Of a stretch of DNA of 50,471 nt, positions 12,825 to 50,471 are shown in pieces. Every line of letters begins with the position of its first letter. Within the stretch, counting starts at the first letter, position 1. Made by a program: the position numbers and the translations under genes. Below the pieces are notes generated by a model. The model worked only from the letters and a program-made list of their open reading frames with translations, did no database searches and was not told the origin of the DNA. The DNA comes from a virus. Location: positions 1 to 50,471 of IMG/VR virus record IMGVR_UViG_3300006737_000046. One strand, written 5' to 3'.

Positions 12825-13752
12825 AATTATATGTTGCGGAACCAAAGATTTTCTAGATTACTATTCTGACGGACTTGCTGAAGATTGCAATAGATTTGGT
12901 TACGAGTTCGAAAAAATTGTAACTATCAGTGAACACACATACAGTTCAATAAATCACCAAATACAAAAAGATATGGTAGATTATATGACATGGAATAGTC
13001 ACGACAACGAACGTATATGTTTTTTAGATCCTGAGTGCAGAATAGTCAAACCTATTCCCGAAAGTTGGATTGAGTCCAAGGAGCCACATGTATTTTATAA
13101 AGTTGAACATGGCCAACAAGAAATATCAAGATATGTATATGGAGCCACACTGCCGACAAATATAATAATGCAACCAATATTTGTGTCACGACATGATTTA
13201 GTTTGGATGCAATGGTGGTTGGATGCTTCTATATCTTTAAGCGACTTAAAACACGAACAATATGTTCCACAAGAATTACTAATACAACAATCACTTAATT
13301 TTAATAAGGTAAAGTACACCAGTGGAGTTGTAACTTATAATCGAGGTTACACAGGCAAACATGAAGTTGTCGCTGGCAGTTGGAAGCATCAAGATACAAT
13401 TATACAACACCCAAGAATACATGCTACTTTGGATCAAAGAATATTGCCATGCAATCCGGAAAGAAGAGATAATAAAATTTTGTCCGAAAGAGATTTACAC
13501 AACCATTACGAACATTGTCCGTATGAAACAATACAGCAAATTGATCAGTTAATGGGTAAGGAAAAATTAGATGAATGGCCTGCAGAAACACAACTGAAAG
13601 ATGGTTGGCACTGCATTGATAAATGGGAATTTAAGCCACGTACAGGACAAGTTAAACATAAAGATTACGCCATGATAAAATATCATCACAGCATCATAAG
13701 AAAATTAGATATCGGCGTCAAAACTCCTGCTGTGTATCATTTCACTAATTAA
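12808..13752 (+). CDS. Putative glycosyltransferase-like protein
   Basis: A 314-residue protein without a clear motif match. The N-terminus (LKIICCGTKDFLDYY) and the ICFLDPECRIVKP segment, with an acidic DxE near residues 74-76, are reminiscent of GT-A-type glycosyltransferases in which a DxD-like motif binds the metal and nucleotide sugar. It overlaps the radical SAM gene by 17 bases, so the two are likely to act together, for example on a surface glycan or on DNA or protein. The family call is weak; it may equally be an uncharacterised enzyme. Confidence 0.5.
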   Translation: MTKQLKIICCGTKDFLDYYSDGLAEDCNRFGYEFEKIVTISEHTYSSINHQIQKDMVDYMTWNSHDNERICFLDPECRIVKPIPESWIESKEPHVFYKVEHGQQEISRYVYGATLPTNIIMQPIFVSRHDLVWMQWWLDASISLSDLKHEQYVPQELLIQQSLNFNKVKYTSGVVTYNRGYTGKHEVVAGSWKHQDTIIQHPRIHATLDQRILPCNPERRDNKILSERDLHNHYEHCPYETIQQIDQLMGKEKLDEWPAETQLKDGWHCIDKWEFKPRTGQVKHKDYAMIKYHHSIIRKLDIGVKTPAVYHFTN

Positions 13753-19506: not shown

Positions 19507-20606
19507 TATAGATTTACCTCCATGTCTACCTCATTGAAAGATATTACATCCCATCCTACGCCTCGTACTCGCATAGTAAATTCTCTAGTGAACACTTGTT
19601 CTATAAATGAACTTGAATCTGATCTTTTAGTTGCACCGATTGTGAAAGTGTAAGTTTCTTCTAGGGTAATTTGTCTAGGTATTAATCCAAATATTTCACC
19701 ACTATTATAATCAACTTCTAATCCTGGAGGTAATGTTCCACTAGTCAATGCATAATAGATATTAATATCCCCAGCAGTCCCTAGGTTGCCATCCGGATCA
19801 ACTGTGTCTATTGTAATAATATAATAGTTTTCATGGTAGTAATCACCCAAATCAGGTTCAGTAATAAAGTGCAATGGCCTGATGCCATCAGATGCATCAG
19901 CACTGTGTATAGTAGTGTCTGCCCTTAGCAAATCACTATCAGTTTTTTGTCCTGCTCCAGTGACTGCTATTGAAAATGTTCTATCGGCAAATGCAACACC
20001 GTCGGACACTCTTACTGTAAATTCGTAAAGTTTATTAATAGATGACAAACTTAAAGTAAAATCCCAAAGTTGAGTTTCGTCCCATTCTACTCCGTCCCAA
20101 CCTACCTGCGTAGAATCAAACAATGATGCCGGCACAGGTTGACTGACACCTCTTAAAACTCCTGACTCTTCAAGTAGATCAATTCCTGGCGGTAGTTGTC
20201 CATCGATAACTTTGTAACTCTTAATATCGTTGTCTGTGTCTACAGCTTGTAACTGCAAATTTAAAAAAGTACCATCGAATAAGTTTGCTATTTGTCCTGC
20301 TCCAGTAATCCATGTAGGAGCATCGTCACCATCTACAAACAGAGTAAAAGTTCTATCAGCCACATCATTACCTGCCGTAGCTCTCACCACAAAGGTTGAT
20401 TCTGTTCTTTCAGGAACCTCTGTTGGTATGCCTTCTATGAATCCTGTTGATTTTATTTGTATGCCTGCAGGCAATTTGCCAGAATGAAAAGTATATTTTA
20501 CAGTATCACCATCCGCATCAGTGGCTTCAATAGCCTGCGAATAGAATACGCCTTCACTAATACTGCCCAGAGAACCGGCATCTGTTATCCATGTGGGTTT
20601 TGCCAT
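19506..20606 (-). CDS. Multi-Ig-like (He_PIG) virion protein
   Basis: A 366-residue protein made of three Ig-like domains with the recurring pattern (G-x-LP-x-GI ... G ... G-x-P): SGKLPAGIQIKSTGFIEGIP, DGQLPPGIDLLEESGVLRGV and SGTLPPGLEVDYNSGEIFGL. PTWIT begins each of the first two domains. Such cadherin/Ig-like arrays are used by phages for weak binding to cell-surface glycans. A late-type box (TAAATA, six bases, ATG) lies upstream. It forms a pair with the 18046-19506 protein, which carries one more copy of the same domain. Confidence 0.82.
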   Translation of the reverse strand: MAKPTWITDAGSLGSISEGVFYSQAIEATDADGDTVKYTFHSGKLPAGIQIKSTGFIEGIPTEVPERTESTFVVRATAGNDVADRTFTLFVDGDDAPTWITGAGQIANLFDGTFLNLQLQAVDTDNDIKSYKVIDGQLPPGIDLLEESGVLRGVSQPVPASLFDSTQVGWDGVEWDETQLWDFTLSLSSINKLYEFTVRVSDGVAFADRTFSIAVTGAGQKTDSDLLRADTTIHSADASDGIRPLHFITEPDLGDYYHENYYIITIDTVDPDGNLGTAGDINIYYALTSGTLPPGLEVDYNSGEIFGLIPRQITLEETYTFTIGATKRSDSSSFIEQVFTREFTMRVRGVGWDVISFNEVDMEVNL

Positions 20607-29294: not shown

Positions 29295-30440
29295 CTATGC
29301 TTTTGATGAGTGTATGTAGCCTGGTATCATCTTGTTGATTTGCATCTGCTTGTAACCAGGTTGACTCCATGTATAATCAAATGTGCCTACAACACCATCT
29401 ATTTCTATTTGATAAACATCTTGATAGTTTGATAGAATGCTCCACACCACCTGTGGATCGTCAGACCCAAAAGATCTTTTAAGATTACATTGTGCCAGTT
29501 TTATAAAGCCTAGAGACAATTTCGGATCATCCGGATCAAAGCCATTTCGTCTCAACCATGCATGAAATTCTTTTTGTTCTTCCATGTGCCAAGTTGCATA
29601 CGCATCGCTTTCTTGCACATCTTTGCCCCATTCGATATCGAAACATCCTGAGTAATAACGCAAAGCATTGATTGTCGAACAGGTTGCCTGATCTATATCT
29701 TTACCGTCCTCATCTCTGAATACCTCTATATGTGTCTTTCCTACTTGTGACCAATGAAGATATAGTCCTCCGCACTGTCTATCAAATTTATTTTGTTGAA
29801 ATAATTTATAATCTTCTTCATGAAGATCTACTCGAGGTGCCTGTAACCAAGTGTTGATCTGACTAGGCCGTTGCCATTCCGGATCTACAATTTTTTTCCT
29901 GTGACTGAGAATGTAATTTTCAAGTTCGTGGCAAAGATCGTTCAACTGCCTAATTGCATATTTGGTTTCGTGATCTGCTGTCTTATAGTAAGGACTTAGG
30001 TTCCATGCTTCTCCTTGCAGATCTTCAAAATATCTATGTAATCTATTCATTGCGTCATGTTTAATACGCAGGCCAGGTTTGTTTGATTCATTACCATCTG
30101 GACAGGATCCTGTGGGTAAATCTGCAGAATACATCACAGTATCACAGTCAAAATGATCTTGTATGGCATATGGTTCAAGTCCTGCATTACCCCAAGTATG
30201 AGACCTATTAAAGCGATTAATCACCCCTATAGACTCATTTATTTGTTCACACAAATAATCAATGTTGCGAGGCGAATCAGCAAACCCCATAAAGCAGTAA
30301 TTTTTTTCTAAGTGGTAATCTTCTTTGATCAGTTTGATAAGTTCAGTTTTCCATCTTTCGAAAAACTGATTTCTATAGACAGCAAAGGATACTTCTATTG
30401 TGTCTGTAAGATTTAGTGGATTTCTATAAATTATCTTCAT
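29295..30440 (-). CDS. Conserved phage protein, 381 residues
   Basis: A 381-residue protein rich in His, Trp and Tyr (HDAMNRLHRYFEDLQGEAW, GGLYLHWSQVGKTHIEVFRD). No known catalytic motif can be read. The tight four-base overlap with the QueD-like gene (ATGA) indicates joint translation, so it may act in the same pathway or be a partner of the pterin-synthase-like protein. I believe proteins of this type occur in marine T4-like phages without annotation. Confidence 0.7.
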   Translation of the reverse strand: MKIIYRNPLNLTDTIEVSFAVYRNQFFERWKTELIKLIKEDYHLEKNYCFMGFADSPRNIDYLCEQINESIGVINRFNRSHTWGNAGLEPYAIQDHFDCDTVMYSADLPTGSCPDGNESNKPGLRIKHDAMNRLHRYFEDLQGEAWNLSPYYKTADHETKYAIRQLNDLCHELENYILSHRKKIVDPEWQRPSQINTWLQAPRVDLHEEDYKLFQQNKFDRQCGGLYLHWSQVGKTHIEVFRDEDGKDIDQATCSTINALRYYSGCFDIEWGKDVQESDAYATWHMEEQKEFHAWLRRNGFDPDDPKLSLGFIKLAQCNLKRSFGSDDPQVVWSILSNYQDVYQIEIDGVVGTFDYTWSQPGYKQMQINKMIPGYIHSSKA

Positions 30441-38776: not shown

Positions 38777-39377
38777 TTTTTACTAACTCGAACAATTGAC
38801 CAATAGTATAATCATTTGGCTTGTTACTGTCAACAAGATTACCACTAAATTCAAAAACTTCTATGGTATTTCCATCCGGCCCTATCATTTCTTTTTTGTT
38901 ATGAATATTAGCAATTCTTTCCTTTTCTAACAAACACAGATAATATTCTTTGGCACTGTCGTTCCCGAATGTATAACAATATGATCCATTGTATCCAAAA
39001 TATAAATTGTTTGTGATTGTGGCCGGTCTATCTGGATTCTCCTCTAACTGTTCTTTGCTCCATTGTACCACAAAAGGTTTATCATACAATATAAGTTCTG
39101 GTATCTCAAAATCATCCAAACTAATAGATTTTAGTATCACTGCTCTATCAGATACTACTACACCATCTTCGTCAACTATTGTCTCATATCCTTGTTTGCC
39201 ATAGTGTTCTATGTGCAAGTTGTTCTTGTCATGCGGATTTATAGTTGTATTGAATACAAACAGATCATTATTTTTTACTTCACAAGGTCCATCATGTAAA
39301 ATATTATTATTGATAACAATTCTAATGTTAGGCCACTTGATAGAAAATGTTGGTTGTAATTTGATTGTAATTTTCAT
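38766..39377 (-). CDS. Beta-sandwich protein, second paralogue in the operon
   Basis: The start is ATG 39377, which forms an ATGA overlap with the radical SAM stop; the frame upstream offers only a TTG. The 203-residue product has the same core as its neighbour: LKSISLDDFEIPELILYD and LYFGYNGSYCYTFG. About 60 residues at the C-terminus (ANIHNKKEMIGPDGNTIEVF onward) are extra and may be a separate small domain. Function inferred only as binding. Confidence 0.7.
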   Translation of the reverse strand: MKITIKLQPTFSIKWPNIRIVINNNILHDGPCEVKNNDLFVFNTTINPHDKNNLHIEHYGKQGYETIVDEDGVVVSDRAVILKSISLDDFEIPELILYDKPFVVQWSKEQLEENPDRPATITNNLYFGYNGSYCYTFGNDSAKEYYLCLLEKERIANIHNKKEMIGPDGNTIEVFEFSGNLVDSNKPNDYTIGQLFELVKNAN

Positions 39378-40927
39378 CAATATGTTCTCAATGGATCGAA
39401 GTCCTGTTGTTCTTCTAATATGCCTTTTTCTCTGTCAAACTTAATTTTGGAGGCATCTACTTTTCTTGCTTTCTCTATCTGTAAATTTTTAACTTCATTC
39501 CATGCAATAGACAGAGCTCTAACATAGTTTTTAGACTCAAACACTTTGTAACCAAGTTGTTCAACATAATGTTGTGCTTCAATTCTGCGTTCTAATCTCT
39601 CTTTGAAATCTAAACTTGGATTTTGTGTGCATACCCAATCGTTGATGTGATCCTTTGTTGTATTCAAACCGTACTCTTCTGCGTTGTCATAGAGTGGCGT
39701 TTGTGGAAGCAAATTCAAAGTAAGTCCTAGATTGATTTCTTCAACTAATCCATTTCGGCCATATTCTGCATAGCGTTCAAAAAACTTTAGGGTTTGATCA
39801 AAATCTTCGCGTGTCTCGGTCGGGTATCCTATGATCATTAAAAAACGTACTTTGATGTTGTTTTTAAATATTTCACCAAGGCTGTAATGTAAATCTTCGT
39901 CTGTATAGCCTTTTTTCATGTGTTCTCTTACACTAGGACTTCCTGATTCCACACCGATTAACAAAGTACTTGCACCACTGTCTGCCATCTTTTTGAAATC
40001 TTCAGGAGGCATTTGTTTCCTACTTCTAACAATAAAGTGCGAGTCCCAAATAAATCTATCTTGTTGTGGCATTGCCAATCTAAATTCTGCAAGTTCGTGA
40101 GTCATGTTTCTGAATGCTTTCATTGATCCGTTGATAAGACTATCTGTAAATCGAAATGCTTTTGCTCCATACCTTGCTACTTGAGTTTTGATTTCGGTTG
40201 CTATGCTGTGTCCAGATCTAAATTTGTATTTGGGCCACATACTTGCTATATCACAGAAAGTACAAGATCGTACACAACCTCTAGACCCAGTGATTGGTAG
40301 AGCTACCAATCCTTTTTTGTTTGTGTATGATGCTAGTTCATAATCAGAATAATCCGGAAAAGGTAATTCGTCGATGTTATCTATCTGTTGTGGTGACTTA
40401 CCATTTATACCAGGATGATCCAAGTTACCTTTTAGATAAGCCGGCACTGACAGTTCACCTTCACCTCTGATCCATGCATCCATTATTTTTCTATCTAAAC
40501 AGAAAGGTCCAAATGCATTATCTGTGTTCAAGCCTGCTCCGCCCATAAAAATTTTGATAGCAGGATTTTTAGACTTGATCATGGTTGCAAGTAATAGAGT
40601 TGCTCGTTGTGAATTATATGAAAATACAGATATGCCCACTGTGTGTGGATTGTATTTGATGACTTGTTCGGCCCATTCGTCTGCCAAGTTGTAAATCTGA
40701 TTGTATATTTTTTCAGAGTAAAAATTATGATTAAGAAACCAGTTGTCAATAGGCACTAACTGTTCTCGTTTGTGTTCAAATGCTTTTTCAAGTTCTGCAT
40801 TAAAGTCAAAAATTTTGCATTGATATCCTTCTTTGACTATGGATGCTTTAACTAATGAGGCACCTGCAGGTGTATAACCAAAATCATCTTGTATCCTAGG
40901 TGCAATAACAATCGCAATTCTTTCCAT
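39377..40927 (-). CDS. B12-binding-type radical SAM enzyme
   Basis: A 516-residue radical SAM protein. The first 160 residues look like a B12-binding Rossmann domain (MERIAIVIAPRI, HTVGISVFSYNSQRATLLLA, IKIFMGGAGLNTD), though the canonical DxHxxG of cobalamin binding is not evident. The [4Fe-4S] motif is CVRSCTFCD (C-x3-C-x2-C), followed by LLIGVESGSPSVREHMKKG and IGYPTETREDF. Enzymes of this class methylate or rearrange inert carbons in lipids, peptides and antibiotics. Promoter: TTGCTA, 17, TATAAT, five bases, ATG, downstream of element B. It leads an operon with two beta-sandwich proteins and a 2OG oxygenase. Confidence 0.88.
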   Translation of the reverse strand: MERIAIVIAPRIQDDFGYTPAGASLVKASIVKEGYQCKIFDFNAELEKAFEHKREQLVPIDNWFLNHNFYSEKIYNQIYNLADEWAEQVIKYNPHTVGISVFSYNSQRATLLLATMIKSKNPAIKIFMGGAGLNTDNAFGPFCLDRKIMDAWIRGEGELSVPAYLKGNLDHPGINGKSPQQIDNIDELPFPDYSDYELASYTNKKGLVALPITGSRGCVRSCTFCDIASMWPKYKFRSGHSIATEIKTQVARYGAKAFRFTDSLINGSMKAFRNMTHELAEFRLAMPQQDRFIWDSHFIVRSRKQMPPEDFKKMADSGASTLLIGVESGSPSVREHMKKGYTDEDLHYSLGEIFKNNIKVRFLMIIGYPTETREDFDQTLKFFERYAEYGRNGLVEEINLGLTLNLLPQTPLYDNAEEYGLNTTKDHINDWVCTQNPSLDFKERLERRIEAQHYVEQLGYKVFESKNYVRALSIAWNEVKNLQIEKARKVDASKIKFDREKGILEEQQDFDPLRTY

Positions 40928-40932
40928 ACTTT

Positions 40933-40961
40933 ATTATACTCTATTTTTAAAGTGTTAGCAA
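40933..40961 (-). promoter_or_regulatory. Sigma70-type promoter of the B12-radical SAM operon
   Basis: TTGCTA (40956-40961), 17-base spacer, TATAAT (40933-40938), five bases, ATG 40927. The same boxes and spacing as the TctA promoter. Confidence 0.65.
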
Positions 40962-41062
40962 GGAAGTTGCGTACGGAAGGGCGTTCTTGTTAGGTAAAGA
41001 GCAACGGCTCAGGCGTCCTTTTTTATCTCCGGCGTCACGGTGTGGCGCTACAAAAATATTTA
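40962..41062 (-). other. Structured intergenic element B, related to element A at 29193
   Basis: On the minus strand it begins with TAAATA (41057-41062), five T, then GTAGCGCCACACCGTGACGC, a hairpin of 7 bp with loop ACC at the same place as the element A hairpin. A small GAGC-CGTT-GCTC hairpin follows, and it ends with CTTCCTTGCTAAC, shared with A. The order late box, hairpin, -35 is the same in both copies and the hairpin sequences differ in a way that keeps pairing. It may be a short RNA or a leader/operator. Confidence 0.45.
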
Positions 41063-41063
41063 T

Positions 41064-42404
41064 CTACCAAAAATATTTGCCCTTGTATTCTAATAAATTT
41101 ACCAACGAAACAAATTCTTCTAATTCATAGTGTTTGCCTATGTGTTTGGTTGTTGGTAAGTTGTCTTTTCTTCTTGTAAACCAAAGTACACTTGTTTTAT
41201 CTAAAGAGAAAGTTTCGCAAAGTTCATCAGCATCTTCAATATAATAATCATATGTGTAATCAAAGTTAAATTGTTTGCTTAACATAAAAAACACTTGAAA
41301 AGGAATTTTAGGATACGAGCAAATCTCAGTGTTAAAAGTTTGGGCATCATGAATATATTCCTTAGTCCATCTAAAAGCTGGACGCAAGTTCCATACAGGC
41401 CATCCTTTATTCATACTAAAGTATATTTCATCTACATCCAAAAGATTCAGATCAATGTTTTCATTGCTGACGGACAACCATGTGGCATCTACAGCAATTT
41501 TACATTGTAAATCTTTGGCTTTCTTTATAATATCTAACAATTGATTAGTGTCATACCATGGACATGGGATCTCAAGTATTATAGAACTATTTGGTAATAG
41601 TTCATCACTCAACAAATCATATACTTTGGTATCCATACCTTCCAGTATTTCGCCGTTGCCTTCATAATTTTTCTTACACAGAAACAGACGGTCTGCTCTG
41701 TTTATGAAAGATTGTAAAGACTCAATAACTCCTGTAGACAGTGTAAAGTGTTTGAACAGATCAAAATTATGTACACTTATTCTTTTACTACTGTTGATCC
41801 AGTCTTCTAAATGTTTTCTGCTGTCTGACAAATTGATTGGATACATTAATTGTTGTAATGTGTAATTTTGATATGCATCTTTAATTTTGTCTAATTTGCA
41901 ATTACCAACTCCTACAAACATAAATCTTGCATCACAATAGATATTATCAAAGTTTTTATCTCTAAATGTTTCACCAGCCAACGGCCATTTAACATATTCA
42001 AAATTATTCTTTGCAATAGTCCATGCCGCAATCTTAAGTTTGTCTTGGCAATCGTTTATTGTGATTACAGTTGAACCTTGATAACCAAAATAGCAATTAT
42101 TTGCAACAGTGTCAACTTCTGTATTAGGATGTGCATCTTTGTCTATCACATGATCATGAGTCTTAATCCAATCAAAATAATCACCGTCATTAATTCTAAA
42201 ATATTCTATTACTGCAAATGAATCATCAATTGGATTTTTTGCAAAGTCGATCTGCATGATATTATGAGTGCGAATTTTATTACCTACAATTTTAATCGGA
42301 GCACTCACATCGTACACTTCGTCATTGAACTTGCACACAACTTTACACGGACCACTTGTTTTTATTTTTAGTTCTATTTTTTCTACAGGAAAGTCAAATG
42401 TCAT
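41064..42404 (-). CDS. Fusion of beta-sandwich domain and PLP-dependent aminotransferase-like domain
   Basis: A 446-residue protein. The N-terminal 120 residues (FGYQGSTVITIND near 106-118) resemble the beta-sandwich family of this window. The C-terminal 230 residues look like a fold-type I PLP enzyme: CKIAVDATWLSVS (Asp306 for the pyridine nitrogen) and DEIYFSMNKGWPVWNLRPAF, with Lys333 as candidate Schiff-base lysine and Arg341 as candidate carboxylate binder. Active-site placement is an inference. The ATGA overlap with the exonuclease gene shows co-transcription. A role in sugar or amino-acid modification is possible. Confidence 0.65.
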   Translation of the reverse strand: MTFDFPVEKIELKIKTSGPCKVVCKFNDEVYDVSAPIKIVGNKIRTHNIMQIDFAKNPIDDSFAVIEYFRINDGDYFDWIKTHDHVIDKDAHPNTEVDTVANNCYFGYQGSTVITINDCQDKLKIAAWTIAKNNFEYVKWPLAGETFRDKNFDNIYCDARFMFVGVGNCKLDKIKDAYQNYTLQQLMYPINLSDSRKHLEDWINSSKRISVHNFDLFKHFTLSTGVIESLQSFINRADRLFLCKKNYEGNGEILEGMDTKVYDLLSDELLPNSSIILEIPCPWYDTNQLLDIIKKAKDLQCKIAVDATWLSVSNENIDLNLLDVDEIYFSMNKGWPVWNLRPAFRWTKEYIHDAQTFNTEICSYPKIPFQVFFMLSKQFNFDYTYDYYIEDADELCETFSLDKTSVLWFTRRKDNLPTTKHIGKHYELEEFVSLVNLLEYKGKYFW

Positions 42405-42901
42405 AATAGTTTTTTGTATGCTTTTTGCACAACATCAGCCTGAGCCACTGCATCAGCAAGAGCATTGTGCTTACCTTCAATATTTACAGTAAGGTCAGCA
42501 ACATCAAACAATGTTCTGGTATCACGCACTTCCCAGAACTTCCAAGTTACAGCCTGTTGTAACTTTCTACATATATTTTCTATTATAACAATGTCAAAGA
42601 TAGCACCATGACTCCATACCGCTGTGGTGCCAAAACCAAATGTGTACAGTTTCTTCATAGCATCAGCCATCTGTATCCTACCTTCTTCACCAAATGCATC
42701 TTCTTGAATTGCTTTGTCCTGTTTGCTCCACCATTCGATAGTGCTGGGATTTATATCTCTGTCCTGTGAATCTAAATCAATGCGTTCATAAAATGTATCG
42801 GCAATAGTGTCACCGTGTGGATCAAACTTGCAGGCCCCAATAGTAAGCACAGCCGCCTCTGGCGTAGTTGCTAGTGTTTCCAAGTCAATCATTAGATGCA
42901 T
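42401..42901 (-). CDS. DexA-like 3'-5' exonuclease (DEDD family)
   Basis: A 166-residue DnaQ-fold exonuclease. MIDLETLATTPEAAVLTIGA gives Asp5 and Glu7 of ExoI, and NALADAVAQADVV with KH before it gives the ExoIII His/Asp; HGAIFDIVIIENI supplies the ExoII Asp. It resembles T4 DexA and the Rv2179c-type exoribonucleases. It could degrade host nucleic acid or process RNA. Promoter: TAGACA, 16, TACAAT, six bases, ATG. Confidence 0.85.
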   Translation of the reverse strand: MHLMIDLETLATTPEAAVLTIGACKFDPHGDTIADTFYERIDLDSQDRDINPSTIEWWSKQDKAIQEDAFGEEGRIQMADAMKKLYTFGFGTTAVWSHGAIFDIVIIENICRKLQQAVTWKFWEVRDTRTLFDVADLTVNIEGKHNALADAVAQADVVQKAYKKLL

Positions 42902-42907
42902 GACTAT

Positions 42908-42935
42908 ATTGTACAGTAAAAATTAAATCTGTCTA
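42908..42935 (-). promoter_or_regulatory. Sigma70-type promoter of the exonuclease operon
   Basis: TAGACA (42930-42935), 16-base spacer, TACAAT (42908-42913), six bases, ATG 42901. Confidence 0.6.
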
Positions 42936-43187
42936 CTTCTTTTTGGAATTTTCTTTTTCTTTTTGATCAAGTATCATTTGTAGTTTGGTATTCAATCGGA
43001 TCATATCATTATCCAGCATACGAATTCGGTCGATAAGAGCAATCAGTGTGGTACTGGCATCACCCAATACTGGTTTAATTTCTGTGGTAACCCATTTCCA
43101 CACATAGTAAACAAAGTAACCAAGACCCATAGCGGCTATGATCGGAAAGCCGTATTGATTAATTGCGTCTGCTAATTCACTACCCAT
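42933..43187 (-). CDS. Holin-like membrane protein, paralogue of 43612-43890
   Basis: An 84-residue protein with one N-terminal transmembrane helix (FPIIAAMGLGYFVYYVW, residues 14-30), an amphipathic coiled-coil region (LIALIDRIRMLDNDMIRL) and a Lys-rich tail. The order and several positions (GFPI, ALDNR/ALIDR, NND/DND) match the protein at 43612-43890, so the two are paralogues. A Shine-Dalgarno (AGGAG) precedes ATG 43187. Size and topology suit a holin or a small phage membrane protein. Confidence 0.65.
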   Translation of the reverse strand: MGSELADAINQYGFPIIAAMGLGYFVYYVWKWVTTEIKPVLGDASTTLIALIDRIRMLDNDMIRLNTKLQMILDQKEKENSKKK

Positions 43188-43458
43188 TGGTTACTCCTAC
43201 TAGTTCTAGATATTTAATGTTCTTCTCAACATCGTCTGTTGGTAATACTTGTAACTTGTTGAACAAATAACTTAGATGCACTTGTCGAACTGGAGACCTT
43301 AATGGATCCATTATAAAATAATCAATTATCTTGTGATTGTTATGACAGTAATCGATTATTTCTTTTGGGGTTAAATCGTTGGTCAGCACAAATTTTGTGT
43401 GATTATGAAAATGCAAAAGTAGACTAGGTGATCTTACACAAATCCATGCAGTTTTCAT
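43180..43458 (-). CDS. Unknown protein, 92 residues
   Basis: A 92-residue protein with many His (LLLHFHNHTKFVLTND, YCHNNHKIIDYFIMD), possibly metal-binding. It overlaps both neighbours (eight bases with the holin-like gene, four bases with the basic protein), indicating a joint transcript. No family recognised. Confidence 0.55.
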   Translation of the reverse strand: MKTAWICVRSPSLLLHFHNHTKFVLTNDLTPKEIIDYCHNNHKIIDYFIMDPLRSPVRQVHLSYLFNKLQVLPTDDVEKNIKYLELVGVTNG

Positions 43459-43628
43459 TTTGTAATTTTCTTTTTCTTTTTAGGACGCAACACACTCATT
43501 TTTTTTAGAGTAAGCAGAGTATTCATTTTTTCTCTTGCATCATGCACTCGCCCTGTAGACATTAAATGTTCACAATCTTCTAACACCTTGATGTCGTGTT
43601 TTAAATCTTTACTAATCACGGCGGGCAT
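43455..43628 (-). CDS. Small basic protein
   Basis: I take ATG 43628 (MPAVISKDLKHDIKVLEDC), overlapping the end of the upstream holin-like gene by 17 bases, with a purine-rich GGGAAAGA in front; ATG 43664 would add 12 residues. The 57-residue helical product ends in a Lys-rich tail (RPKKKKKITK). Similar Lys tails are seen in three other small proteins in this window. Function unknown. Confidence 0.55.
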   Translation of the reverse strand: MPAVISKDLKHDIKVLEDCEHLMSTGRVHDAREKMNTLLTLKKMSVLRPKKKKKITK

Positions 43629-43890
43629 CTTCTTTCCCTTCATTGGCCGCAAGTCGATCAACATTTGGTTTTACGCCAGTCACATAACTTAATAATGTGT
43701 CTATTTTGACAAGGTCGTTGTTCATGGTCTGCACCCTATTGTCTAGAGCAGTGATGATATTTTTTAGACCCATCACTTGTCCAGTCACAGAGGCCAGTAT
43801 GTATTTGAGTGTAAGGAATATGAAAAAGCCTGATGCTATTGCACCTGCTATGGGGAATCCAACATCTCCTACTAATTGTAAAAAGTCCAT
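43612..43890 (-). CDS. Holin-like membrane protein
   Basis: Start at ATG 43890 (MDFLQLVGDVGFPIAGAIA). The 92-residue protein has one or two hydrophobic segments (residues 11-38), then VMGLKNIITALDNRVQTMNN and DLVKIDTLLSYVTG, and a charged tail. I recognise this type from marine T4-like phages as a conserved small membrane protein. It is divergent to the curli-like operon; both start within the 41 bases between 43890 and 43932. Holin function is possible, not shown. Confidence 0.7.
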   Translation of the reverse strand: MDFLQLVGDVGFPIAGAIASGFFIFLTLKYILASVTGQVMGLKNIITALDNRVQTMNNDLVKIDTLLSYVTGVKPNVDRLAANEGKEDARRD

Positions 43891-43920
43891 ATACACATAC
43901 TTATTGTGGTAATTTTGCGG

Positions 43921-43926
43921 TAAATA
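43921..43926 (+). promoter_or_regulatory. Late-type promoter box TAAATA of the curli-like operon
   Basis: GGTAAATACAGTT then ATG at 43932: five bases between box and ATG, the same geometry as the virion genes. It suggests the curli-like operon is expressed late as an almost leaderless message. Confidence 0.6.
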
Positions 43927-43931
43927 CAGTT

Positions 43932-44402
43932 ATGAAAATCATCAAATATACATTGTTGATCGCCCTATTCGTGTCTACAGCATGGGCAGATTCTATGCAC
44001 TTTGAATTTGGTAATCCTTCCTTTTCAGGATCTGGGTATTCATCACATGTATTGTCCATAGAACAATTACAATATTCAAGAGCAAATGACATCAAGGCAG
44101 ATGCCAAGTCGGCGTTATCTGCCGCTGAACGTGAAGAGAAAAATAAAACAATCAACAAGTTTGTTGCCAATGTTGAATCTAGAATTTATGCAAACTTGTC
44201 CAAGCAGTTGGTAGACAATATGTTTGGTACTAATTGTGATTCAGAAACAACAAACTGTCCTGACTCGGGAACAGCAGTTGTAGAAGGAGCCACTATTGCC
44301 TGGGCCAAAAATGCATCAGGCACAACTATCACTTTGACTGTCACTGACACAGATGGAACTGTGTCTACTTTAACAGTGCCGATCGGAGACTTTGTATTTT
44401 AA
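43932..44402 (+). CDS. csgF: CsgF-like curli assembly factor
   Basis: A 156-residue secreted protein. The signal peptide is residues 1-19 (FVSTAWA/DSMH). The mature N-terminus (SMHFEFGNPSFSGSGYSS) matches the CsgF segment that plugs into the CsgG channel, where E. coli CsgF has a related F-x-F-x-NP-x-F motif. The C-terminus (VTDTDGTVSTLTVPIGDFVF) matches the end of CsgF. A middle Ala/Glu/Lys helix follows the usual order. CsgF couples secretion through CsgG to nucleation at the cell surface. ATG 43932 is chosen over longer upstream frames because of the signal peptide and the TAAATA box. It is directly followed by csgG. Confidence 0.88.
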   Translation: MKIIKYTLLIALFVSTAWADSMHFEFGNPSFSGSGYSSHVLSIEQLQYSRANDIKADAKSALSAAEREEKNKTINKFVANVESRIYANLSKQLVDNMFGTNCDSETTNCPDSGTAVVEGATIAWAKNASGTTITLTVTDTDGTVSTLTVPIGDFVF

Positions 44403-45217
44403 TGCGTAATTTATTCTTTGTTATAGTTTTATCGATACTGGTAGCCTCATGTGCTACTATGCCACAAGATCGTGTAGTTCCTGGACAAATTCCTTATGTG
44501 GTAGGTACACCAACCAAAATGATGTTAGAACAGATTCCTAAACTGGATGGACAACCAAAGATCACAATAGCAGTTTATTCATTTCCTGATCTCACAGGCC
44601 AACGTAAACCAAGCACTAAATTTTCACAACTATCCACAGCAGTCTCACAAGGTACTGATGTTTGGGTAATCCAAGCACTCAAGGCAACAGCACAAGGTAA
44701 CATGTTCCAAGTGGTTGAAAGAGGTGGGTTAGATCATCTTGTTAAGGAAAGACAGTTGATTAGATCAACTAGAGAATTATATGACGGTGATGACAATGTG
44801 AATTCACTCAAACCTATGCTATTTGCCGGATTGATACTTGAAGGAGGCATAATAGGATATGATTCAAATGTCGAGTCAGGCGGACAAGGTGCTAGGTATT
44901 TTGGCATAGGAGCACACGAAGAATACAGAGTTGATCAAGTCACAGTGAGTATGAGGCTGGTCGCTGTGCAAACTGGAGAAATATTACTAACACAAGAAGC
45001 CACAAAGACTATTGCTAGCCATAAAGCAGGTGCTGATGTATTCCGCTTTTTAGATATGAGCACTAAGGCTTTTGAAATAGAATCAGGAGTTGCTACTAAT
45101 GAGCCTGTAAATTATGCTATTAGAGCCGCTATAGAGTACGGATTGTACGAAATGATTAAACAGGGCGAGAATTTAGGCATGTGGAAGTTTAAATACAAAG
45201 TACATAAGGACATGTGA
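44402..45217 (+). CDS. csgG: CsgG outer-membrane curli secretion channel
   Basis: A 271-residue lipoprotein, lipobox VASC (Cys17). It is close to E. coli CsgG: LVKERQLIRSTRE, LILEGGIIGYDSNVESGG, GARYFGIGAHEEYRVDQVTV, VQTGEILLTQEATKTI and TNEPVNYAIRAAIE are all recognisable. CsgG forms the nonameric outer-membrane channel for curlin export. The constriction loop differs: where E. coli has YPASNF the phage has STKFSQL, so the ring of Tyr-Asn-Phe is not conserved. The start overlaps the csgF stop (TAATG), so the pair is translated together. Confidence 0.93.
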   Translation: MRNLFFVIVLSILVASCATMPQDRVVPGQIPYVVGTPTKMMLEQIPKLDGQPKITIAVYSFPDLTGQRKPSTKFSQLSTAVSQGTDVWVIQALKATAQGNMFQVVERGGLDHLVKERQLIRSTRELYDGDDNVNSLKPMLFAGLILEGGIIGYDSNVESGGQGARYFGIGAHEEYRVDQVTVSMRLVAVQTGEILLTQEATKTIASHKAGADVFRFLDMSTKAFEIESGVATNEPVNYAIRAAIEYGLYEMIKQGENLGMWKFKYKVHKDM

Positions 45218-45222
45218 TACAT

Positions 45223-45912
45223 ATGAAGATAAGACATTATATAAGCATTTTTGCGATTTTAGGACTAACCACAGGAGCATTGGCTAACGATATCTATGTG
45301 ACACAGTCAGGTGACACACTTGATTTAGACATCACACAAGACGGTCAAAACAACACTGTGGGTAACTCAACCACTGCATCAGCATCAACAGGTACTGCAT
45401 TCAACATGGACATTGATCAAATAGGTAACAGCAACGTGATCAAGTATCAAGTCAACGGTGCAACCTACGAAGGTATCATTAGTTTGACTGGTGACAGCAA
45501 CGATGTTGATCTAAATTGTGACTCAACTAGTGGTAACTCATCTTGTGGAACTGTAACTGCTTCAATCACAATGGTTGGTTCGAGCAATGATTTAGACATT
45601 GACATTGGACAAACATCAGCGGCAACAGGAACAGAGGTTACTATCACATCAGCGGCTTCGGATGATTCAAACGTAATAGCGGCAACTATTGATGGTACCA
45701 GTGCAATTTTAAGAATCACTGTAGATGGTGACACTAACAACTGGTTGGTAGACATCGATGGTAATGGTGATGTAAATGGACATACTTTAATACACACTCA
45801 CACAGGTGGAATTGCTGACGTTGATATTGTACAAAGTGGCGTGTATGACAACATGATCACTTTAACTACATCAGGTGATAACGCAGACATCGATATTAGT
45901 CAGACAGACTAA
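45223..45912 (+). CDS. Curlin-repeat secreted protein (CsgA/CsgB-like)
   Basis: A 229-residue secreted protein with signal peptide (GLTTGALA/NDIY). The mature part is Asn/Gly/Ser/Asp-rich and shows curlin-like units with the pattern (Q-x-G-x-x-N-x-(hydrophobic)): TQDGQNNTVGN, DQIGNSNVIKY, LTGDSNDVDLN, MVGSSNDLDID, VDGDTNNWLVD and QSGVYDNMITL. These are looser than in E. coli CsgA, with one Cys pair (CDSTSGNSSC). It starts at ATG 45223, six bases after the csgG stop, and is likely the substrate of the CsgG channel. Its DNA also encodes open frames on the other strand that I treat as shadows. Confidence 0.8.
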   Translation: MKIRHYISIFAILGLTTGALANDIYVTQSGDTLDLDITQDGQNNTVGNSTTASASTGTAFNMDIDQIGNSNVIKYQVNGATYEGIISLTGDSNDVDLNCDSTSGNSSCGTVTASITMVGSSNDLDIDIGQTSAATGTEVTITSAASDDSNVIAATIDGTSAILRITVDGDTNNWLVDIDGNGDVNGHTLIHTHTGGIADVDIVQSGVYDNMITLTTSGDNADIDISQTD

Positions 45913-45914
45913 CA

Positions 45915-47054
45915 ATGACCCGCATTTTTCTTAGATTACTAATACTAGTAATAGGCACTGTCGCCATAGGTACATACGCCAAACATGCCTTTGGTGATGT
46001 GATCGGAGATGTCATAATGCTCGAGGGCAATGGCATCATAGACAGAAAGCAGACTGGTGAGTCTACTCAGTTAGAAATCGATCTTGATGTGTTTTCATAT
46101 GACACTGTGAAAACAGGCAATGGTAAAACAGCAATTGAATTTCTCGATGAGACCAGAGTAGATGTTACACAGCATTCAAAATTAATCATAGATGAATTTG
46201 TGTATGATCCTAATGCCAAAACAGGTAAACTATCACTCAAGGCATCACTGGGCACTGTGAGATATGCTTCAGGACAGATAGCAAAAAATTCAATGCAGAA
46301 TGTTGTAATTAAAACTCCAACAGCAACCATAGGAGTCAGAGGAACTGACTTCACAATGACTGTGGACGAAATAGGGTCCTCTACAATTATTTTACTTCCT
46401 TCTTGTAATTCACAAGGTATGTGTTATGTGGGAGAGATAGAAGTTGAATCAGATGCAGGATATGTAATAATGAATCAGGCATTTCAGGCCACTGTGGTTG
46501 ATACTATTTCTACTCCTCCTATGAAGCCGGTGATACTTGATCTAAGTGAAGACTTGATTGGAAACTTGTTGATTATTTCTAAGCCAACCGAGATACAAGA
46601 ACAACAAAAGGCGGCAGAATATAACAAAGTTGCCACTGCACTTGACTTAGACTTTTTACAATTTGATGACTTAGAAATAGATTATTTGGAAGAAGAGGAA
46701 GACAACTGGGCAACAGGACTTGATATTGATTTTCTCGAACAAAATTTCCTAGTTGATGTGTTGGATCAGATCAATAAAGAATTAGCAAAACAGATGGCCA
46801 ATGCAGGACTAGAACGTAGATCAACTGTGGACCACTCGGGCATTCCTTTAGGTAAGGACCCGGATACTGGCATCATAATATTGGACGAAGATCCATCGTG
46901 GGTGTATGCTAGAGAAGGTGCAACCAACTATTTTGAACTGCGATTAGATAAGGAATTTGGTTACATAATTAGTTTTGTACAAGGTGACTTTGAGAGTTAC
47001 GATTATGAATTGGGAGGGCAACAAAATGAAATCCGTTTATTTCAGTCTAATTAG
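45915..47054 (+). CDS. FecR-domain secreted protein
   Basis: A 379-residue protein. An N-terminal signal or anchor (residues 5-26, FLRLLILVIGTVAIGTYA) is followed by a FecR domain (about 28-150): VFSYDTVKTGNGKTAIEFLD, TRVDVTQHSKLIIDEF, GTVRYASGQIAKNS and KTPTATIGVRGTDF, the classical FecR ending. The C-terminal part has an acidic repeat, LDLDFLQFDDLEIDYL and LDIDFLEQNFLVDVL, of unknown role. In bacteria such FecR proteins often accompany CHASE2-cyclase or secretion systems. It starts two bases after the curlin stop. Confidence 0.85.
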   Translation: MTRIFLRLLILVIGTVAIGTYAKHAFGDVIGDVIMLEGNGIIDRKQTGESTQLEIDLDVFSYDTVKTGNGKTAIEFLDETRVDVTQHSKLIIDEFVYDPNAKTGKLSLKASLGTVRYASGQIAKNSMQNVVIKTPTATIGVRGTDFTMTVDEIGSSTIILLPSCNSQGMCYVGEIEVESDAGYVIMNQAFQATVVDTISTPPMKPVILDLSEDLIGNLLIISKPTEIQEQQKAAEYNKVATALDLDFLQFDDLEIDYLEEEEDNWATGLDIDFLEQNFLVDVLDQINKELAKQMANAGLERRSTVDHSGIPLGKDPDTGIIILDEDPSWVYAREGATNYFELRLDKEFGYIISFVQGDFESYDYELGGQQNEIRLFQSN

Positions 47055-47322
47055 TTTTGCTTTTGTTATACTGATGTTTGAAATTTTAATGACAACATAT
47101 ACTCATGCAAATGATTTATTGTATGCATTAAAAACTATAGAACACAGAATAGATGAATGTATTGCTGAACGTGATTGCACAGAATTAGCAAATGAAAATC
47201 CTTTGCTCACATCAGTTTTATTGGATTACGACTTCATGGTTGAAATTGCACCTGGTGTAGACAGACACAGATTGGCGTATCTACATGACAAGACTGTACA
47301 GGCAATGGCATATGTGGACTAG
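47026..47322 (+). CDS. Small secreted protein, 98 residues
   Basis: Start at ATG 47026, with a GGAGG Shine-Dalgarno about 10 bases upstream, overlapping the FecR gene by 29 bases. The N-terminus is a signal peptide (SLISFAFVILMFEILM ... THA). The mature 70 residues (YALKTIEHRIDECIAERDC, ELANENPLLTSVLL) hold two Cys that could form a disulfide. The family is unknown. Its place between fecR and the curlin fusion suggests a chaperone or accessory role in the same system. Confidence 0.7.
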   Translation: MKSVYFSLISFAFVILMFEILMTTYTHANDLLYALKTIEHRIDECIAERDCTELANENPLLTSVLLDYDFMVEIAPGVDRHRLAYLHDKTVQAMAYVD

Positions 47323-48769
47323 ACTTTTCACAATAATACTAATGTTGATCCCTTCTACAGTTTGGGGAGGAAATGCGTTAATTTATCACTCCAATTACAG
47401 TGATGCACACACCAATATGAAAGCACAGTTAGAAGCAGATGGTCATACCGTGACTCTATCAACAGATGGTTCTATTGCTGACAACTTGATCAACAGTTAC
47501 GACATTGTAGTAGACTTAAAATACAACAACAACATAGGCGGAAATGGAAAGACCAGATATCAAAACTTTGTACAAGCAGGTGGTATATTGATTGTAACTG
47601 GTGAAAACAATGCAAATTTCAGTAGCAGAAACAACAACATAGAAGCATTGATAGAAAATAAATTTGGTGGCTCATTGACTATCAGTGGGAACACTTCTGG
47701 TTGCAGTAGTCCTTGTTCTGCAAATCAAATAACAAATTCAAACAATGTCACGCAAACCAACACTGATGCAGGAGTAAGCAGTTATACCAGTGTTGGTCAT
47801 TATCCATATGGTGCATATTTTACAGGTGATGGCACATGGGTAGCAAAAAATGCCAGTGGACAAATTTTATGGATGAAATGGTCAGGAAATCAATTGCCGA
47901 GTGGATACACTGGTGAAGTGTATGTGACCTTTGATCTTAACCAATTTGAATCTGCATTCGATGGCACAGACTTTTACGATTTGATGAGTGATTTGTACAC
48001 AGAAGCGGTTACCAGTGTTACAATATCATCGGGACAAACCACTTTAAAAAACAGTGCCTTCAATGCAACATCCAGTGAGAACAAAGTAAATCTTGTCACA
48101 GACGGAAGCAACAATACAATAAACATACAACAATCAGGCAACAATAATTTTGTGGTAGGCACTGATTGGACCAGTGCAGGAAACATCACTGGCAACAGCA
48201 ACACATTAACAATTGATCAGGGTAATGTCTTAACGAGCGGAAGCAGTGTTGACAATGGACTGGGCATAGATATCACTGGCAACAGCAACACTGTGATATT
48301 GTCGCAAGGTGATGCCGCCAATGATGATGGCGGACACAGGACATGGTTAGACATTGACGGCAGTTCAAATCATTTGACGTTACAACAGAAAGACAGCGAC
48401 ACACAAGGCACTGATGGTGATCATTTTATGTCATTAGATTTGGATTCATCCAGTAACACGTTGGTTTTACAGCAGTTGAACGACAATGACAAAGTGATGT
48501 TTTTAGATATTAATAACAACAGCAACACAATAGACATATCGCAAGAGGGTACAGGTAATCATTATTTAGATCTTACCACAGCAGGATCAGCTCATGACAT
48601 AGATATCATGCAAAAAGACAATGGCAACCATGCCGCAAGAATAGATCTAGGTGGATATTCAATTGACTTTGATCTTTTGCAACAAGGATCCACAAGTCAA
48701 AGTTATAATGTCACCAGCAGTTGTGGAGCTGCCAATGGTTGTACACTGAGTACCACACAAGGAGAATAA
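47312..48769 (+). CDS. Secreted fusion: alpha/beta domain plus curlin-like repeats
   Basis: A 485-residue secreted protein; start ATG 47312 (MWTRLFTIILMLIPSTVWG), overlapping the small secreted gene by 11 bases. The N-terminal 180 residues (ALIYHSNYSDAHTNMKAQLE, VVDLKYNN, AGGILIVTGENNANF) look like a Rossmann-type alpha/beta domain such as those of GATase1/ThuA-like folds. From about residue 245 there are seven to eight curlin-like units: SNNTINIQQSG, GNSNTLTIDQG, GNSNTVILSQG, GSSNHLTLQQK, SSSNTLVLQQL, NNSNTIDISQE and DIDIMQKDNGN. Two of them share an identical 20-base DNA stretch. Curlin repeats fused to such a domain are unusual. Confidence 0.8.
   Translation: MWTRLFTIILMLIPSTVWGGNALIYHSNYSDAHTNMKAQLEADGHTVTLSTDGSIADNLINSYDIVVDLKYNNNIGGNGKTRYQNFVQAGGILIVTGENNANFSSRNNNIEALIENKFGGSLTISGNTSGCSSPCSANQITNSNNVTQTNTDAGVSSYTSVGHYPYGAYFTGDGTWVAKNASGQILWMKWSGNQLPSGYTGEVYVTFDLNQFESAFDGTDFYDLMSDLYTEAVTSVTISSGQTTLKNSAFNATSSENKVNLVTDGSNNTINIQQSGNNNFVVGTDWTSAGNITGNSNTLTIDQGNVLTSGSSVDNGLGIDITGNSNTVILSQGDAANDDGGHRTWLDIDGSSNHLTLQQKDSDTQGTDGDHFMSLDLDSSSNTLVLQQLNDNDKVMFLDINNNSNTIDISQEGTGNHYLDLTTAGSAHDIDIMQKDNGNHAARIDLGGYSIDFDLLQQGSTSQSYNVTSSCGAANGCTLSTTQGE
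48185..48204 (+). repeat. 20-base direct repeat, copy 1, in the curlin fusion gene
   Basis: ATCACTGGCAACAGCAACAC at 48185-48204, identical to 48272-48291. It encodes the ITGNSNT core of adjacent curlin-like units, suggesting recent unit duplication. Confidence 0.8.
48272..48291 (+). repeat. 20-base direct repeat, copy 2, in the curlin fusion gene
   Basis: Identical to 48185-48204, 87 bases apart, a multiple of three, so recombination between copies would keep the frame. Confidence 0.8.
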
Positions 48770-49116
48770 TGTTTAAAAGAATACGAGAACGTTGGAAGAA
48801 GGCATTTACATCAGACAACATTGTAGACTTAAGTGTGGACATATTCCTAATGGTGGTTGATGTGTTATCTTCTCCTATTTTAATAGTAATGAGAATAGTG
48901 CGTTGGCTCATTAATAAATTTTTCATAGATTATATGAAAGCAGGCGTAAGAGGCATTGTGCATTGGTTCCAAAGACATAGTGCTAGACGCAAAGAACTAG
49001 GATATGGATTCATTAGATACTGGTGGTGGTTGCTACTGTTAAGTCCTGCGATAATGGTATTAATTGCATTTGCGATTGCGTTTATAATAGGATGGAAAGA
49101 AGGCATGGCATCATGA
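48769..49116 (+). CDS. Membrane protein of the curli-like operon, 115 residues
   Basis: A basic protein with two or three hydrophobic segments: LSVDIFLMVVDVLSSPILIV (about 21-40), and YWWWLLLLSPAIMVLIAFAI plus AFIIGW at the C-terminus. The loop between is Arg/His-rich (VHWFQRHSARRKE). Its ATG overlaps the upstream stop (TAATG) and its stop overlaps the cyclase ATG (ATGA). The tight coupling suggests an inner-membrane partner of the CHASE2-cyclase. No family recognised. Confidence 0.75.
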   Translation: MFKRIRERWKKAFTSDNIVDLSVDIFLMVVDVLSSPILIVMRIVRWLINKFFIDYMKAGVRGIVHWFQRHSARRKELGYGFIRYWWWLLLLSPAIMVLIAFAIAFIIGWKEGMAS

Positions 49117-50471
49117 GTAAGATATTAACTCATTGGACTGTGGCATTTTTGACTTTGGCGTTATTAGTTTTTTTGCGAGTACAGGACGACGGACTGGTAG
49201 AAACTGCTAGATTAAAATCATTTGATTATCTACAGAGCACAGATCCTGTCACTACGAGTGAAGACATCATAGTTGTAGAGATAGATGAAGCCGCCATCGA
49301 AATGAATGGTCAATGGCCATGGTCGCGTGACAAGATGGCAGACTTAATTTGGAAATTGCGTGAGCAGGGTGCAGGGATAATCATATTGCCCATACTGTTT
49401 GCAGAAGATGACCGAGACGGCCAAGACATGGCATTGGCACAAGCATTGGTTCAGAACGGTGTGATCATTGCACAGGTAGGCACCACACAAACAAACAAGA
49501 ATGCAGTGCCACGTGGCGTTGCTAAAATAGGAGATCCTATTCCATGGTTGTTCCAATGGCCAGGCATGTTAGGACCAATTGAACTGTTAGGACTTAATGC
49601 CGATGGTGTGGGCGTGATCAACATAGCACCTGAGATAGACGGTGTAGTAAGACGTGTTCCTTTGATCATGACAGTGGGTGAAGAAACTTATCCAGCAATG
49701 GCAATTGAAATGATTAGAGTTGCTGTAGGTGATCCATCTTATCAGATCAAAGCAGGAGAGGCAGGAGTTATTGCAGTCAGAGTACCTGGCTATGACACAA
49801 TCTACACAGACCAACATGCTAGAATTTGGTTGCGTTGGAATAAAGATTTTGAAACTGTTAGTATGGCTGATGATTTGAGTGTTGTGGCTGGTAAGACAGT
49901 TGTGATAGGTTTGACAGCAGAAGGGTTAGCAAATACCATTGCCTCACCATCTGGCACACAGTATGCACATACACCGATTGCAGTATCTTTACAAACCATA
50001 ATCAATGGTGAAAACATCAAAAGAACAGACTTGGCAGACACATATGAACTTGGATTTTTATTACTGCTAGGACTTATATTAATAATTGCGTCACGTTTTG
50101 TACATTATTATATTGTAGCAGGAACGATTGTGTTGGCAGGTGTTGGCACAGTGTTTAGTGCCACCTATTTGTATTCTACATATTTGCTATTGTTTGATTT
50201 TTCATGGCCTGTAATCACAATCACACTCGTGGGACTTCATGCAGTATTCAACAGATTTGTTAGGGAGTTCCAACTTAAACAACAGATTAGGAAACAGTTT
50301 GAAAAATATTTAGATCCTAGACAGGTTGCAATACTAGTGAAACACCCAGAGAAATTAAAACTAGGAGGCGACAGAAAAGAAATGAGTTTCTTGTTTATGG
50401 ACATTGTAGGCTTTACACCTATATCAGAATACTACAAGAACAATGATGATCCGGAAGGATTAGTTGAAGTG
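49113..50471 (+). CDS. CHASE2-domain class III adenylate/guanylate cyclase (3' end off window)
   Basis: At least 453 residues, cut by the window edge. Order: N-terminal membrane anchor (residues 8-21), periplasmic CHASE2 sensor (about 30-300: EDIIVVEIDEAAIEMNGQWP, DGVGVINIAPEIDGVVRRVP, AGKTVVIGLTAEG), three membrane helices (about 310-385), a short linker, then the start of a class III cyclase domain (EMSFLFMDIVGFTPIS with the metal-binding Asp near 430). The enzyme would make cAMP or cGMP in the host cytoplasm in response to an envelope signal. Specificity residues lie beyond the window. It is the last visible gene of the curli-like operon. Confidence 0.92.
   Translation, partial: MSKILTHWTVAFLTLALLVFLRVQDDGLVETARLKSFDYLQSTDPVTTSEDIIVVEIDEAAIEMNGQWPWSRDKMADLIWKLREQGAGIIILPILFAEDDRDGQDMALAQALVQNGVIIAQVGTTQTNKNAVPRGVAKIGDPIPWLFQWPGMLGPIELLGLNADGVGVINIAPEIDGVVRRVPLIMTVGEETYPAMAIEMIRVAVGDPSYQIKAGEAGVIAVRVPGYDTIYTDQHARIWLRWNKDFETVSMADDLSVVAGKTVVIGLTAEGLANTIASPSGTQYAHTPIAVSLQTIINGENIKRTDLADTYELGFLLLLGLILIIASRFVHYYIVAGTIVLAGVGTVFSATYLYSTYLLLFDFSWPVITITLVGLHAVFNRFVREFQLKQQIRKQFEKYLDPRQVAILVKHPEKLKLGGDRKEMSFLFMDIVGFTPISEYYKNNDDPEGLVEV

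Follow-up and report, generated by a model that had tools for sequence, protein, structure and literature searches.

A curli-like operon with a FecR-domain protein and a CHASE2-cyclase in an Arenbergviridae-like jumbo phage, a candidate surface-adhesin device

Curli genes in phages have been a puzzle since 2020, and the proposals for their role have ranged from lysis timing to sibling capture. csgF and csgG were reported in pelagimyophages (PMC7029224), and the order csgF-csgG-csgA/B-FecR-(csgA/B)-adenylate cyclase was described in podo- and myophages of SAR11 as a module of alphaproteobacterial origin that is expressed in metatranscriptomes (PMC9599517). Here we ask what such an operon may do at the right end of the IMG/VR virus record IMGVR_UViG_3300006737_000046, the whole 50,471 bases of which are referred to as the window. 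We give a probability of about one half to the reading that the operon encodes a surface-adhesin device, in which a FecR-domain protein would anchor a curli-like fibre and a CHASE2 sensor would read the FecR protein to set cyclic AMP (cAMP). The operon as such is not new, because it is described in PMC9599517 and the annotated genomes of Pelagibacter phage HTVC008M and Methylophilales phage Melnitz show the same gene order; an earlier note on this DNA had regarded the combination with FecR and the cyclase as unfamiliar. The jumbo backbone, a pair of small membrane genes, the swapping of catalytic domains and a sister module based on type I secretion, all described below, were missed in that note.

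The operon and its contig support

Eight open reading frames (ORFs) on the same strand, overlapping or abutting one another, span positions 43932-50471 of the window. They and the features within them are as follows.

43932..44402, + strand: csgF (PF10614, 58.2 bits, cut-off 25.8; phrog_35372)
44402..45217, + strand: csgG, outer-membrane export pore with a lipoprotein signal (PF03783, 172.5 bits, cut-off 20.8; 64% identical to HTVC008M CsgG)
45214..45912, + strand: first curlin, secreted, ending in DIDISQTD (PF07012, 20.8 bits, cut-off 20.7; 66% identical to the HTVC008M curlin)
45915..47054, + strand: FecR-domain protein with signal peptide, FecR beta domain, helical linker and C-terminal beta domain (PF04773, 37.9 bits, cut-off 24; AlphaFold2 model)
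46962..47054, + strand: curlin-like C-terminal strand-turn-strand of the FecR protein, ending in NEIRLFQSN (pattern in 55/55 operon FecRs)
47026..47322, + strand: small secreted protein, lineage-specific, with a signal-peptide-like start (four loci including the window in a single-sequence search; no Pfam match)
47285..48769, + strand: second curlin (fusion), secreted, with a weakly ThuA/Rossmann-like N-terminal head followed by curlin-type repeats
48769..49116, + strand: membrane protein (seen in seven loci)
49113..50471, + strand: CHASE2 sensor and class III nucleotide cyclase, running off the end of the window (CHASE2, 138.8 bits, cut-off 26.3; complete in L042)
50259..50261, + strand: approximate breakpoint between sensor and catalytic part (maximum chi-square; ends of DNA matches)

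The coordinates bear out the eight consecutive, tightly overlapping genes of the earlier note, among which CsgF, CsgG, the curlin, FecR, the curlin fusion and the CHASE2-cyclase were confirmed. Its suggestion of translational coupling, and of an export pore made together with amyloid-type subunits and a membrane cyclase, is likewise supported. We rejected a join of unrelated sequences near 43.9 kb, as that junction is crossed by a contig with 99.8% identity to window positions 41601-50471 (L004/L041; IMG/VR 3300025102_005135). A second contig, L042 (3300017721_000918), is 99.7% identical to positions 45227-50471 and reaches the end of the cyclase. Both continue to the right of the operon into ClpS-like, Hsp20-like, ClpX-like and ribonucleotide-reductase-like genes of the phage backbone; the operon is therefore carried by a phage, as had been claimed, and the cyclase is intact. 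The late-type promoter that had been proposed for it is not supported: no copy of TATAAATA was found in the window, nor any site with one mismatch upstream of csgF. No tRNA genes were found in the window.

The components of type VIII secretion (curli) in the window are the CsgG pore, CsgF and secreted subunits with curlin repeats. The Pfam model Curlin_rpt scores just above its cut-off in the first curlin (20.8/20.7) and under it in the fusion (15.2/20.7), which carries six N-x-[ILV]-x-[ILV]-x-Q repeats despite the sub-threshold score. The head of the fusion matches ThuA below the cut-off (E 4.7e-4), and its structure model was of low confidence (predicted local distance difference test 57.8) and too poor for a fold search. 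The second curlins of relatives bear other heads, for instance PA14 in HTVC008M and L043; such head domains would fit a role in binding.

The core module and the small membrane pair

Among 54 distinct csgG loci, csgF lies ahead of csgG in 46/46 distinct loci holding csgF, and the order csgG-curlin-FecR is kept in all 51 loci with FecR, 47 of which also contain the cyclase. Rearranged cyclases stay within the module locus (L006, L043 and L053). Two small membrane genes together with csgF-csgG-curlin-FecR-(curlin2)-cyclase make up the core of the module. The exact eight-gene order is not kept, the small secreted and membrane genes being lineage-specific. We also observed a second type of curli cluster (L225:3848-8811 and L288:1154-6117), with a 739-residue FecR, a 417-residue CsgG and a 548-residue cyclase.

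The two small membrane genes lie to the left of csgF in the window.

42933..43187, - strand: small membrane protein with an N-terminal transmembrane segment and a coiled-coil-like helix (phrog_18771, E 2.2e-31; 49% identical to the HTVC008M protein just upstream of csgF)
43612..43896, - strand: second small membrane protein, a paralogue of the first (phrog_18771, E 9.4e-30; 49% identical to the HTVC008M gene at 6900)

This phrog_18771 pair adjoins csgF in 56 of the 58 loci with room for it, on the same strand in 49 and on the opposite strand in 7, including the window. The two proteins thus belong to the module, an assignment that is new as far as we have searched. They may correspond to the 'histidine kinase' of PMC9599517.

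The backbone of a jumbo phage

The flanks of the operon in the window and L042 are collinear with Pseudomonas phage PA5oct (Arenbergviridae, 287 kb) from NrdB through ClpA, the order being NrdB, ClpX, Hsp20, ClpS, the operon, ligase, ClpP, clamp loader, PhoH and ClpA. As a block, only the operon with its two small membrane genes is close to HTVC008M, the matches in other genes being scattered. The clamp loader of the window is 56% identical to that of PA5oct and 36% to that of HTVC008M. We consequently rejected an HTVC008M-type pelagimyophage (or an HTVC023P-type phage) on the basis of the PA5oct-like backbone and the clamp loader. Judged from its shared collinear core genes, the window phage is an Arenbergviridae-like jumbo phage. 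The operon stands beside the same backbone genes in L005, L006, L008, L043 and L110. None of the papers that our literature search returned describes curli genes in a jumbo phage, and to that extent their occurrence there appears to be new.

The FecR protein as a candidate fibre anchor

The FecR protein starts with a signal helix (residues 2-19) that is followed by the FecR domain, with no N-terminal anti-sigma part, and PF04773 is the sole Pfam domain common to 33 FecR homologues. Its structure model matched the periplasmic domain of PupR (Z 15.1), as expected of a periplasmic FecR fold, and residues 27-124 matched the cell-surface anchoring domain of the RTX antifreeze adhesin 5ix9 (Z 11.2; sequence profile E 2.4e-4), albeit a common fold by itself proves no function.

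The other end of the protein resembles the curlins. A phi-x-phi-x-Q strand with at most four residues after it closes 55/55 operon FecRs, in comparison with 0/20 bacterial FecRs without csg genes, 7/1468 other ORFs and 4.6% of shuffled tails. The same ending is found in most curlins of these operons and in E. coli CsgB. We rejected an iron anti-sigma factor in view of (i) the signal peptide, (ii) the absent anti-sigma part, (iii) the fold resembling an RTX-adhesin anchor and (iv) the curlin-like C-terminal strand; within the literature covered, this reading of the phage FecR appears not to have been proposed before. The earlier note had taken FecR for a signalling module of the envelope. The protein looks more like a fibre anchor, and it may signal as well.

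A constant sensor with an exchangeable catalytic domain

The catalytic motif was read in L042, whose cyclase is complete and near-identical to that of the window, because the window copy is cut by the window end. The L042 protein can be aligned with known adenylate cyclases and has the catalytic residues of class III. The sensor and catalytic parts give discordant affinities: the window protein (as L042) and that of L110 are 86% identical across their sensors and 37% across their catalytic parts, whereas the corresponding values against HTVC008M are 53% and 91%. The breakpoint falls at residue 384, just past the last membrane helix (maximum chi-square 233.8; 0/2000 permutations), and at the DNA level the matches to L006 and L043 end at 50261 while the HTVC008M match begins at 50277. 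The catalytic domain has thus been swapped behind a constant CHASE2 sensor, for which we found no precedent as far as we searched. The metal-binding Asp pair and the Arg are kept in all variants compared, as is the Lys wherever it is readable (X in L120), and the transition-state Asn is replaced by Ser in cyclases of the L003/L006/L043/L110 type. This last type, which is spread over two phage lineages, also has an Asp at the substrate position.

Divergence of the sensor follows that of CsgF, CsgG and FecR closely (r 0.84-0.85), in contrast to divergence of the catalytic domain (r 0.24-0.27). The sensor is thus tied to the envelope module, and one output domain can be replaced by another. The link between FecR and the sensor persists after allowing for CsgG (partial r 0.36; 0/2000 permutations). 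The exchange of catalytic domains with their residues kept suggests selection on cyclic nucleotide output in infected cells.

A sister module based on type I secretion

Taking a related CHASE2-cyclase, L121, as a lead, we found many viral loci with a type I secretion module. In these loci an adhesin, a TolC-type protein, an ABC membrane part and HlyD lie upstream of the cyclase, and the small membrane pair lies downstream. In eight loci the sequence covers all 9 kb ahead of the cyclase; seven of these have the type I set and one has the curli set. The adhesins are 1000-1700 residues long, those scanned carry cadherin or RTX repeats, and 8/8 complete ones begin with a FecR domain (three being near-identical copies). 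The type I contigs belong to the same broad jumbo lineage, since their clamp loader is 72-73% identical to that of the window, and L225 carries both a curli cluster and the type I cyclase module. The type I module beside the CHASE2-cyclase and the small pair was seen on jumbo-type marine phage contigs L229, L230, L241, L248, L251, L264, L267 and L269. The phage-like cyclase of L121 (G004:C19 and C12) occurs, 100% identical, on two contigs of one Rickettsiales metagenome-assembled genome (MAG).

One type I locus, used as a DNA query against phage records, gave no match, and the literature search returned nothing relevant on phage CHASE2 proteins or on type I secretion and cadherin in phages. 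Within these searches, the coupling of the cyclase and the small pair to type I secretion in the same jumbo lineage appears to be new. The sister module points to surface adhesion as the shared purpose of the two modules and to a concrete anchor role for FecR.

Proposed mechanism and alternatives

We propose that CsgG and CsgF would form an outer-membrane export pore, through which the two secreted curlins, the second with its head domain, would exit to build a curli-like fibre on the infected cell. In the periplasm, the FecR protein would be held to the envelope by its FecR domain and could cap, nucleate or tether the fibre through its curlin-like C-terminal strand. CHASE2, which would face the same compartment, could read the state of FecR, that is, export, assembly or a pull on the fibre, and the cytoplasmic cyclase domain would then alter cAMP. 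The small membrane pair is a constant companion of these genes. The sister phages would use, in place of fibre and pore, an adhesin that leaves by the type I route and bears the FecR domain itself. More tentatively, the FecR-CHASE2 couple may be a general sensor of anchored surface fibres that was captured by marine jumbo phages and combined there with interchangeable partners, namely curli or type I export and one or another cyclase domain, such that the infected cell would become adhesive and its cAMP would follow the state of the fibre.

Several observations weigh against the surface-adhesin device. No clumping was seen in Melnitz infection (PMC9004378), and no CsgE was found among the Pfam-scanned operon proteins. 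FecR and CHASE2 genes are both missing from the surroundings of three further alphaproteobacterial curli loci that were sampled. The tail motif behind the 55/55 count was set after the sequences had been inspected, and Curlin_rpt matched none of the tails in the 33 FecR homologues, because of which we call the tail curlin-like only. A phage-encoded cAMP receptor was rejected, the cyclic nucleotide-binding domain PF00027 having no match in ten phage records. On the host side, only 2/60 genomes in a sample of the SAR11-type family, which may not include the host of this phage, hold a cyclic nucleotide-binding domain or a class III cyclase, and one of the two cyclase matches sits on the phage-like contig L120. 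Few cAMP receptors are known in common SAR11-type hosts, despite the suggested selection on cyclic nucleotide output.

How well do other explanations account for the same genes? The scarcity of class III cyclases and cyclic nucleotide-binding proteins in typical SAR11-family genomes would suit a catalytic domain that drains ATP or shifts host metabolism via cAMP, its linkage to the fibre genes reflecting shared expression only, and so would the independent evolution of that domain from the module. We consider this unlikely, however, as the divergence of the sensor half parallels that of csgF, csgG and fecR, and the FecR-CHASE2 pairing also exists in bacteria. CsgGF was proposed in the Melnitz paper as a lysis-timing pore (PMC9004378); CsgG would then act as a gated pore or a pinholin-like channel and the small pair as holins that set the time of host lysis. 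The two small proteins do show a very weak likeness to the holin family phrog_4898 (E 0.003 and 0.007). Nevertheless, CsgG sits in the outer membrane rather than the inner one, the pore of the type I variant is a TolC-type efflux protein that exports an adhesin of 1000-1700 residues, and the curlins, FecR and the CHASE2 sensor are left unaccounted for, which makes lysis timing improbable in our opinion.

A surface fibre produced during infection could also mainly mask receptors from rival phages, as a protective coat or a means of superinfection exclusion (PMC9599517), rather than join cells. We rate this as rather unlikely, since the PA14-type heads and the cadherin/RTX adhesins point to binding. 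The same paper suggested, from the name of FecR and the missing CsgE, that FecR is an iron-responsive regulator and that an open CsgG pore imports siderophores or cofactors. This appears highly improbable: besides the signal peptide and the missing anti-sigma part of the FecR protein, no sigma factor or TonB-dependent receptor was seen in the operon proteins and neighbours that the Pfam scan covered, a minority of the window ORFs, the FecR domain is part of the adhesin in the sister phages, and curlins and CsgF would be superfluous for uptake. Among these explanations, we favour the surface-adhesin device.

Other features of the window

As in PA5oct, several Clp-type protease and chaperone genes (ClpA-, ClpX-, ClpS- and Hsp20-like) are present, at 4247-6454 of the window and 7322-9670 of L042. 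Within a part of the window whose other genes lie on the minus strand, positions 11724-13752 hold a radical SAM gene and a neighbour without assignment; in L042, a SPASM/radical SAM gene (6175-7308) is found to the right of the operon. Large ORFs of 366-516 residues without a strong family match occupy 18046-20606, 29295-30440 and 39377-42404 of the window, one of them with a weak PHROGs match.

Comparison with known systems

The closest counterparts are the curli modules of HTVC008M- and HTVC023P-type pelagiphages (PMC9599517, PMC7029224), with which the window shares the order csgF-csgG-curlin-FecR-(curlin)-cyclase; CsgF, CsgG, the curlin, FecR and the sensor-containing part of the cyclase are 58-66% identical to those of HTVC008M. 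The window differs from them in its jumbo backbone, in the small pair being divergent from csgF (on the same strand as csgF in most phages), in the extra small and membrane genes, in another curlin head and in the exchanged catalytic domains, and the type I sister module is not mentioned in those papers. E. coli curli likewise combine a CsgG pore and CsgF with curlin-repeat subunits, and CsgB also ends in phi-x-phi-x-Q. Unlike that system, the window operon has no CsgE, CsgD or CsgC among its genes, and it adds FecR and a CHASE2-cyclase.

A bacterial counterpart is found in a Caulobacteraceae MAG (L118:5998-12055), in which csgF, csgG, two curlins, FecR and a CHASE2-cyclase follow one another on a contig with bacterial genes, albeit with no small membrane pair and with a sensor only 37% identical to that of the window. 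This locus, on one MAG contig, runs counter to the statement that bacterial curli operons lack FecR and the cyclase. A transfer into the bacterium is possible, because the G+C content of the operon (0.527) differs from that of its flanks (0.658 and 0.558). FecR also adjoins a CHASE2-cyclase without csg genes in several alphaproteobacteria, e.g., Thalassospira.

In the Burkholderia biofilm operon BiofilmReg (PMC5192318), a periplasmic FecR-domain protein is followed by a CHASE2 sensor protein, and the pair has an effect on biofilm. There CHASE2 is fused to a histidine kinase, unlike in the phages, and the operon contains no curli or adhesin gene. Residues 27-124 of the phage FecR, finally, are similar to the N-terminal cell-surface anchoring domain of RTX adhesins (PDB 5ix9). 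The adhesin anchor is made and secreted by the type I route in one piece with the adhesin, whereas the curli module encodes FecR by itself and gives it a curlin-like tail.

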